This document shows positions 59,270-61,166 of a stretch of DNA of 64,000 bases, one piece after another. Position numbers and translations under genes: made by a program. A model generated the notes under the pieces. It did not search any database, had not been told where the DNA came from, and saw only the letters and a program-made list of their open reading frames with translations. The stretch lies in contig JABDBR010000001.1 of assembly GCA_013288545.1 (NCBI GenBank), positions 62,001 to 126,000 of the forward strand, read 5' to 3'. Source of the stretch: Nitrososphaerota archaeon. Its GTDB lineage: Archaea > Thermoproteota > Nitrososphaeria > Nitrososphaerales > Nitrosopumilaceae. The stretch's first letter is position 1; every line of letters starts with the position of its first letter.

Positions 59270-60103
59270 TTGATAGGAAAATTGATCATTATTGGAATTG
59301 TAATAGCTACATTAGTCATCTTGATACCAAATTCATCAAAATTATTCCAGAGTGTGCCATCACTTGATACAGTAAAGGACAAAATTGATCAGGTCACAAG
59401 TGACAAGGGAGTCATCAATGCATCAAAGTCAGCTATCAAAGATATCAGCATGGGTGGAAGACTATTAGTAAATTCTACAGAGTCAAATAATGCTCCGACT
59501 TCAGTTTACCAACTTGCCCCACAGTATGTAACACAACAAAACTATACTGGGCAAGTTTTTGAAAAATCAGGAAACACATGCCAGATCTCTGTTCCTGCCC
59601 TGGCACAAACGATAAACGGAAAAAAGCAACTAACCGGAATAGTTCAGCTTGATCAATGTCCAGAAAAAATAGGCGATCCAGTCCAAGTGATACAATTAAC
59701 AGCAAAACCAAATTCCCCTCCGGTCAATGTCACAAACGGTCTTGTCATTTCTCCTTATTCTAGCAATGATGGTACAAGTACAACAGTATCTCCAACTCTA
59801 CCATCATACTACAATACAGTCCAGCTTAGTACAGTAAATCAAGGGAATAATGCCATGCTAAACTTTGATGATTCATCTGGCCAGACAAGGTCAGTTACAG
59901 TTACAATGAAGAACAGTGACACCATATTATTCACTGGAACATTTTATTCTTCAAAGTTCACGGCTGAAGTAAAAGATGTTCCAAACACGCCACACATCAT
60001 AGAAATGACAATAGACAATGCAGTTTACGGAATATTGCATGCATCTGCATATGCTCCATCTAATGCACAAAACTCTACCATAACTGGAATACTTTCAAAA
60101 TAG
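59270..60103 (+). CDS. Secreted or membrane-anchored protein of unknown function
   Basis: A 277-residue protein from TTG 59270. A hydrophobic segment (3-21) anchors or exports it. The mature region is Ser/Thr/Asn-rich with strand-like segments (VYQLAPQYVTQQNYTGQVFEKSG, CQISVPALAQ, SVTVTMKNSDTILFTGTFYSSKFTAEVKDVP) and several glycosylation sequons. It is probably surface-exposed. No motif is known. Confidence 0.6.
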   Translation: MIGKLIIIGIVIATLVILIPNSSKLFQSVPSLDTVKDKIDQVTSDKGVINASKSAIKDISMGGRLLVNSTESNNAPTSVYQLAPQYVTQQNYTGQVFEKSGNTCQISVPALAQTINGKKQLTGIVQLDQCPEKIGDPVQVIQLTAKPNSPPVNVTNGLVISPYSSNDGTSTTVSPTLPSYYNTVQLSTVNQGNNAMLNFDDSSGQTRSVTVTMKNSDTILFTGTFYSSKFTAEVKDVPNTPHIIEMTIDNAVYGILHASAYAPSNAQNSTITGILSK

Positions 60104-60137: not shown

Positions 60138-60145
60138 TTTTATAA
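60138..60145 (+). promoter_or_regulatory. TATA box of a candidate RNA gene
   Basis: TTTATAAG-type box (TTTTATAAG at 60138-60146) centred about 26 bases before 60167, the first base of the 11-bp stem. The box is close to consensus and there is no protein start here. Confidence 0.55.
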
Positions 60146-60165
60146 GAACATGAAAAGGGTGTAAT

Positions 60166-60255
60166 GGCGTGACCCTGTATAGGCTAAAGCATTCTCTTGC
60201 CATTCGTACAAACACATTGTACTTGACTATGTACAGTTTTTCGCAGGGTCACGCA
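60166..60255 (+). ncRNA. Candidate free-standing structured RNA of unknown class
   Basis: The 334-base gap between two convergent genes contains a perfect 11-bp closing stem: 60167-60177 (GCGTGACCCTG) with 60244-60254 (CAGGGTCACGC). Inside, 60182-60201 folds as GGC-(TA)-AAG-loop-CTT-GCC, and 60218-60235 as TGTAC/GTACA around eight bases; GTACA at 60206-60210 can pair with TGTAC instead. The result is a three-way junction of about 90 nt with its own TATA box. No tRNA, RNase P, SRP, C/D or H/ACA features are clear. The rest of the gap (60256-60437) holds nothing I can name. Confidence 0.6.
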
Positions 60256-60437
60256 AATTCATTTGTCATAATTTGCATCTTTCCGCATTGTTTTGTATAT
60301 GTTCTCATCTTATTTAATAATTAGTGTGATTTATTTCATGAATTAATTATATTCTGTATAAATTATTGTTACTATACCCCAAATAATGTGGGTTTTGTCT
60401 CATCATTGTGGAATTAATCTGAAAACTAGGAGATTTT

Positions 60438-61166
60438 CTAGAAATGTGATATTATTCCAACAAGTTCAGGGAGGGCTTTTGCAGCAGATACCCCAAGGGA
60501 GAAGTCCATGCTTGATGACATGTGGGTCTGCTCTACATTTACCTCAATCATTGTTGCACCATTCTGTTTTGCATATACAGGCAATAGGTTTGCAGGGGAA
60601 ACAGCAAGTGAAGTTCCAACAACAATCATTGCATCACAAGAGCTTGCCTGCATCATTGCAGACTCCCACACATCCTGGGGAAGTGCTTCTCCAAACCAGA
60701 CAACATCAGGCCGTAAAATATTTCCACATTTGCAAAGTGGTGGAAGCTGCGAAAATCCAGATGTTATTTTATTTTTAAAATCACAGACGGTACACTTGAT
60801 TGTAATTATACTACCATGTAATTCGTATACACTAGAGCTTCCAGCTCTTTGGTGTAGCCCGTCAATGTTTTGTGTAAGAACAGAAACTTTCTTGTACTTT
60901 TCAAGCTCTGCAATTGCGACATGTCCAGGATTTGGACTAGCATTCAAGATGTTCTGTCTTCTTTCCTCATACCACTCCCATACAAGTTTTGGATCTTCAT
61001 AGAATGCATCTATTGTTGCAAGCTTCATTGGGTCATACTTTCTCCACAGTCCATCTTTTCCACGAAATGTTGGAATTCCACTCTCCTGGGAAATTCCAGC
61101 ACCTGTAACAAATACAATTTTTTCTGCCTTTCTTAATTTATCAGATATGGTATCCCACATTTTCAC
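60438..61166 (-). CDS. cobB: Sir2-family NAD-dependent protein deacylase
   Basis: A 242-residue sirtuin. [24 protein letters not shown] binds [25 protein letters not shown] holds the catalytic His; the zinc Cys are CTVCDF and PPLCKCGN. The final strands bear [12 protein letters not shown]. In Archaea such enzymes deacetylate Alba and other proteins. It overlaps RNase Z by four bases and closes the operon. Confidence 0.95.

Follow-up and report, generated by a model that had tools for sequence, protein, structure and literature searches.

Nitrosopumilaceae, which are among the most numerous archaea of ocean and soil and important nitrifiers, carry a free-standing structured RNA family that appears undescribed within the open literature. 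In the window (the whole 64,000-nucleotide stretch of DNA that was analysed), comparison of sequences indicates that this RNA is transcribed from the minus strand, from about 60288 to about 60152. The family and the short leaderless open frame at its 5′ end are well supported by the comparisons described below. We propose, with a confidence somewhat below even, that it is a translated, ribosome-gated, trans-acting small RNA, a mechanism suggested by a frame that keeps its length but not its peptide.

The window belongs to a draft assembly of Candidatus Nitrosotalea (1.39 Mb, 57 contigs), a genus whose genomes include N. devanaterra and N. bavarica. The assembly is 85% complete, so copy numbers in it are lower bounds. 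The RNA locus lies between a hypothetical gene (59270–60103, plus strand) and a Sir2-like gene (60438–61166, minus strand), which are convergent. By DNA comparison the locus was the single match in its own genome, and it was recovered in 32 of 61 genomes, all of the same genus. An alignment of the Nitrosotalea loci placed the end of the conserved block at about 60320, past the interval of an earlier note on this DNA, and the RNA is larger than the roughly 90 nt claimed there. Absent from that note were the nine-codon 5′ frame, an extra 5′ hairpin and the paralogous copies.

Structure, strand and extent of the RNA gene

The 90 nt first singled out in the window fold at −33 kcal/mol; relative to dinucleotide shuffles this is z = −4.0, with one of 200 shuffles folding as well. 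Individual relatives gave fold z-scores of −2.9 to −6.5. Structure and strand counts for this copy type, type A, were made on 29 Nitrosotalea sequences. In these the named structure (HA, P1, P2 and P3) had 98.4% of cells paired and 11 pairs with two-sided changes, and its covariation score exceeded those of all 500 shuffles and all slid versions. RNAalifold, unaided, returned P1, P2 and P3. The covariation found in the aligned relatives supports these three helices, and the three-way junction that had been proposed from the window alone is borne out.

The closing helix P1 is the 11-bp perfect stem of the earlier note: its 5′ arm GCGUGACCCUG (60244–60254, minus strand) pairs with its 3′ arm CAGGGUCACGC (60167–60177, minus strand), with four pairs showing two-sided changes and zero broken cells in the 29 sequences. 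The strand joining P1 to P2 (60223–60243, minus strand) contains the conserved unpaired CGAAAAA and GUACAUAGU, in columns that are near-invariant in the same sequences. The P2 hairpin (60206–60222, minus strand) had two-sided changes in four of its six pairs, and the P3 hairpin (60182–60201, minus strand), with its conserved apical AAGAGAAUGCUUU, had two such pairs and 99% of cells paired. The alternative GTACA/TGTAC pairing suggested previously is possible in the window sequence but is not conserved in relatives, as P2 changes to GTGCAC or GTGCGC while the other GTACAT stays unchanged. The additional 5′ hairpin HA (60253–60276, minus strand; GCAAATTC/GAATTTGC in relatives) had 98% of cells paired; one of its pairs changed on both sides (UA to AU), and U-G variants occurred. 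It overlaps the stop codon of the open frame and the first two bases of P1. A second copy type, with its relatives (type B-like), has a further helix, P1b, besides P1 and P2, and its P3 hairpin carries a GNAAU loop that is mostly conserved. Among 44 such sequences in a plain MAFFT alignment, not a structure-fitted one, 25 pairs showed two-sided changes. The place of the 5′ hairpin differs from copy to copy, and only 76% of its cells are paired in type B.

Read as the minus strand, P1 contained 14 G-U cells and 0 A-C cells in the 29 sequences. Together with a conserved promoter on the minus side, this indicates that the RNA is the minus strand and not, as the earlier note had it, the plus strand. 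The TATA box of the RNA gene, ATTAAATA (60311–60318, minus strand), is conserved in the alignment and centred about 26 nt upstream of the first base of the RNA. All 146 copies whose upstream DNA could be scored had TATA-like matches of 6–8 of 8, and in 125 of the 146 the centre lay 25–26 nt upstream of the first base of the frame. Read as the minus strand, the far end of the conserved block carries TTATTAAATA, and an invariant AATG comes about 26 nt after it. A plus-strand three-way-junction RNA is highly improbable. The same stem can form on that strand, and a TATA-like TTTTATAAG (60138–60145) does exist in the window 26 nt before it, but the 14 P1 G-U pairs would become A-C mismatches, all copies retain the promoter and start on the minus side, and the plus-strand box is not a family feature, plus-side matches being only mildly above random stretches across copies. 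The RNA gene thus has a TATA box of its own, as claimed, but not the one that was claimed.

The whole RNA (60152–60288, minus strand) is about 137 nt long, as delimited by the conservation block and by a match of the covariance model R1 (described below) at 60153–60290 on the minus strand (150.5 bits). Its predicted 5′ end is at 60288 or at most 2 nt off, and its 3′ end was set by a U-rich tract after P1 (60141–60156, minus strand). A T-rich tract lay 3′ of P1 in the copies read, and the tract in the window is probably the terminator.

Distribution, paralogs and gene context

Two covariance models were used, R1 built from Nitrosotalea type A sequences and R2 from the second copy type; their E-values are rough. 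R1 found relatives in 11 genera, with second copies in several genomes. R2 was applied to 300 genomes of the order, 132 in the family and 168 others, and matched 127 of the 132 (Nitrosotalea and other Nitrosopumilaceae genera) and none of the 168. Matching genomes held one to four copies by the covariance models. A laxer search of 31 negative genomes gave nothing under E = 0.5, and partial R1 matches outside the family in two genomes (G145 and G151, E 0.001–0.009) were not supported by R2. The five family genomes in which R2 found no copy (G261, G266, G277, G287 and G304) possibly reflect lineage-specific loss. Two of the five are 0.8 Mb genomes of one genus.

The window genome has three copies: type A in the window, type B and type C. 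Type B (C1:130751–130888, equivalent to L091:12752–12889, plus strand) lies about 4.8 kb past the window end, with the frame MQKDVKSTA*. It stands on the opposite strand, between SDR-like and TFB-like genes. Type C (C7:6138–6301, equivalent to L205:2139–2302, minus strand) has a GTG start and the frame VIVESHQMA*. Its P3 hairpin contains GGAGGTAATCTCC, a Shine-Dalgarno-like word; this GGAGG was considered as a family feature and set aside, as it is not common to the Nitrosotalea type A copies. The paralogs are strongly diverged and were detected only by covariance models. This divergence and the single DNA match in the genome speak against a repeat or mobile element.

Type A lies between the hypothetical gene and the Sir2-like gene in Nitrosotalea, while in other genera its flanking genes are aroC- and aroA-like (names assigned by reading translations) and it is on the opposite strand. 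Several type A copies are about 24 nt from the aroA stop (L109:2059–2191, L103, L098, L110, L102, L052, L055 and L060). Near a TFB-like gene, type B faces a small hypothetical gene in convergent orientation, and a further copy likewise converges on a PurP-like gene. In several genera a gene for a small protein (FHVTLADP...NG...FVPNG) recurs in convergent orientation to type B copies (L107, L104, L106, L097, L100 and L217). No consistent gene was found on the same strand downstream of the RNA across lineages. Since the neighbours vary by lineage and the downstream genes are convergent, the RNA is free-standing, as the earlier note had also concluded from the window, and if functional it would act in trans. 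A cis-acting riboswitch or attenuator leader was rejected on the same grounds, and the ATG-like words 3′ of type B copies fall inside the convergent genes, which removes a leader of a downstream gene there.

No known RNA class was recognised, in agreement with the earlier note: the window copy and the type B copies matched no Rfam 15 family at the gathering threshold. An H/ACA guide RNA was rejected, as some Nitrosotalea copies have an ACA after P1 but other Nitrosotalea copies and most of type B lack it. Archaeal RNase P RNA was likewise rejected, the RF00373 match lying elsewhere in the window genome (contig C51). RF00373 matched both Nitrosotalea genomes tried and gave no match in the apparently complete genome G128.

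The nine-codon open frame and its possible role

At the start of the RNA lies a leaderless nine-codon frame, ATG CGG AAA GAT GCA AAT TAT GAC AAA TGA (MRKDANYDK*; 60259–60288, minus strand). An open frame at this place was present in 147 of 147 copies, with nine codons in 138, ten in 5 and eight in 4; for L213, one of the five with ten, the scoring script chose wrongly, since a nine-codon frame exists there in register. Although the script could pick among nearby starts, 139 of the 147 share one model position. The start codon was ATG in 141 copies and GTG in 6, and TAA, TGA and TAG all occurred as stops. The distance from the start codon to P1 was 33–34 nt in 133 of 144 copies, with the stop 3–7 nt upstream of that helix.

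The 147 frames comprise 109 distinct sequences and 102 distinct peptides, and the most variable codon position is the second, so the peptide does not appear to be the conserved thing; there was no sign of peptide selection. The paralogs of one genome encode nine codons each of the unlike peptides MRKDANYDK, MQKDVKSTA and VIVESHQMA. When letters were permuted within columns, 78% of frames stayed intact (maximum 87%, 500 trials) against the 100% observed. A tree was built from the RNA with the frame left out; a minimum of 27 changes of stop identity, 4 of start codon and 6 of length were counted on it, and the frame was never lost; the 27 is approximate because a tree of RNAs of about 110 nt is poorly resolved. 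One Nitrosotalea subgroup has lost the usual stop and has a new one a codon later, and some copies have swapped the start to GTG or moved it in frame, with the frame preserved. The overlap with the 5′ hairpin means that part of the nucleotide conservation of the frame could come from structure. The frame is, however, intact in all copies although this hairpin varies in place and pairing. A selected open frame in a structured small RNA, the mark of a dual-function (translated) small RNA, is what these sequence patterns indicate.

A frame of fixed length and free sequence points to the ribosome rather than the peptide. The proposed mechanism is as follows. Transcription would start at, or a base or two from, the AUG, so that a ribosome could load on the 5′ end without a leader. 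The ribosome would translate the nine codons and terminate 3–7 nt before P1; going by ribosome footprints in general rather than in these archaea, a ribosome that sits on the stop codon would extend to about +40 and intrude into the P1 5′ arm, whose start is at +34. The RNA would in this way be kept open or ribosome-bound by translation. When initiation drops, closure of the junction would let it act in trans on a partner, protein or RNA, and the activity of the small RNA would report translational capacity. The frame would then be truly translated, with ribosome passage and position mattering and not the peptide, and it is this pressing on or opening of the P1 5′ arm at the stop that favours a translation-gated trans-acting RNA. 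The junction strands and P3 were no more complementary to 16S and 23S rRNA than shuffles, and so no trans target is suggested by rRNA. In a more tentative version, the ribosome might be a mechanical switch or timer: the fixed-length frame would park or drive it against the closing helix, and the RNA would sense translation itself. In nearly all Nitrosopumilaceae, paralogs would then be set to respond to different signals.

Three other explanations accept the minus-strand RNA but assign the frame a different role. The leaderless start and constant short length would also suit a trans-acting structured RNA in which ribosome loading on the frame only protects or stabilises the 5′ end and the junction works independently of translation. 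The strong conserved structure fits this as well, but protection alone leaves nine codons and the exact 33–34 nt spacing to P1 unexplained, and we regard it as rather unlikely. A small mRNA or dual-function RNA, whose product is the nine-residue peptide and whose 3′ structure only stabilises, would account for an open frame intact in every copy and has an archaeal precedent in sRNA154, with its leaderless 20-residue frame (PMC11456600). The 102 peptides, the greatest variation at second codon positions, the unlike peptides from copies of one genome, and the conservation and covariation of the structured part make this distinctly unlikely.

Still less likely is a purely non-coding structured RNA, with the frame a by-product of 5′ structure and promoter sequence that are themselves conserved. 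The frame does overlap hairpins, and the 78% of column-permuted sequences that keep it intact are in line with such an origin. However, the by-product would have had to survive at least 27 changes among TAA, TGA and TAG with no uncompensated loss, to regain a stop one codon later in the Nitrosotalea subgroup, to keep lengths of 8, 9 and 10 only while its start was swapped to GTG or shifted in frame, and to stay put while the hairpin position varies between copies. The translation-gated RNA remains our preferred reading, and a frame that keeps its length while its peptide changes would then be a sharp example of a trans-acting RNA that takes the position of the ribosome as its signal.

Comparison with known systems

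In bacterial leader-peptide attenuators a short translated frame precedes alternative RNA structure, and it is the position of the ribosome that matters, not the peptide. The RNA described here is similar in having a short frame directly before RNA structure. Unlike the attenuators, which act in cis on a downstream gene, it is followed by no same-strand gene, its neighbours being convergent. We know of no orphan RNA class with a conserved leaderless frame at its start. In being covarying and free-standing, it resembles the orphan structured RNA classes found by comparative genomics (for example PMC2864571). No motif from Nitrosopumilus, Cenarchaeum or crenarchaea is named in the main text of that paper. 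Among small RNAs of Nitrosopumilus, none matching was found in the open-access literature, though the marine survey of Shi et al. 2009 could contain them. No small-RNA regulator of Nitrosopumilaceae was described in the open-access literature searched, and a family present in 127 of 132 genomes and 0 of 168 others, and missing from Rfam, would supply one.

The frame of Methanosarcina mazei sRNA154 is described as highly conserved (PMC11456600). Both are free-standing archaeal small RNAs with a leaderless small frame at the 5′ end. They differ, as far as a comparison by description allows, in that the peptide here varies freely, frame and length alone being retained, and in that the Nitrosopumilaceae RNA forms a three-way junction and has several paralogs in a genome. 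In Haloferax volcanii, according to the available part of the report, 42 small RNAs have ribosome occupancy, most without evidence of coding potential (PMC12482152). These too are archaeal, but that part of the report mentions no structured family that they share and that has a frame of fixed length. Within translated small RNAs, what sets the present family apart is a frame of fixed length whose peptide is not conserved, together with the three-way junction and the distribution of the family.
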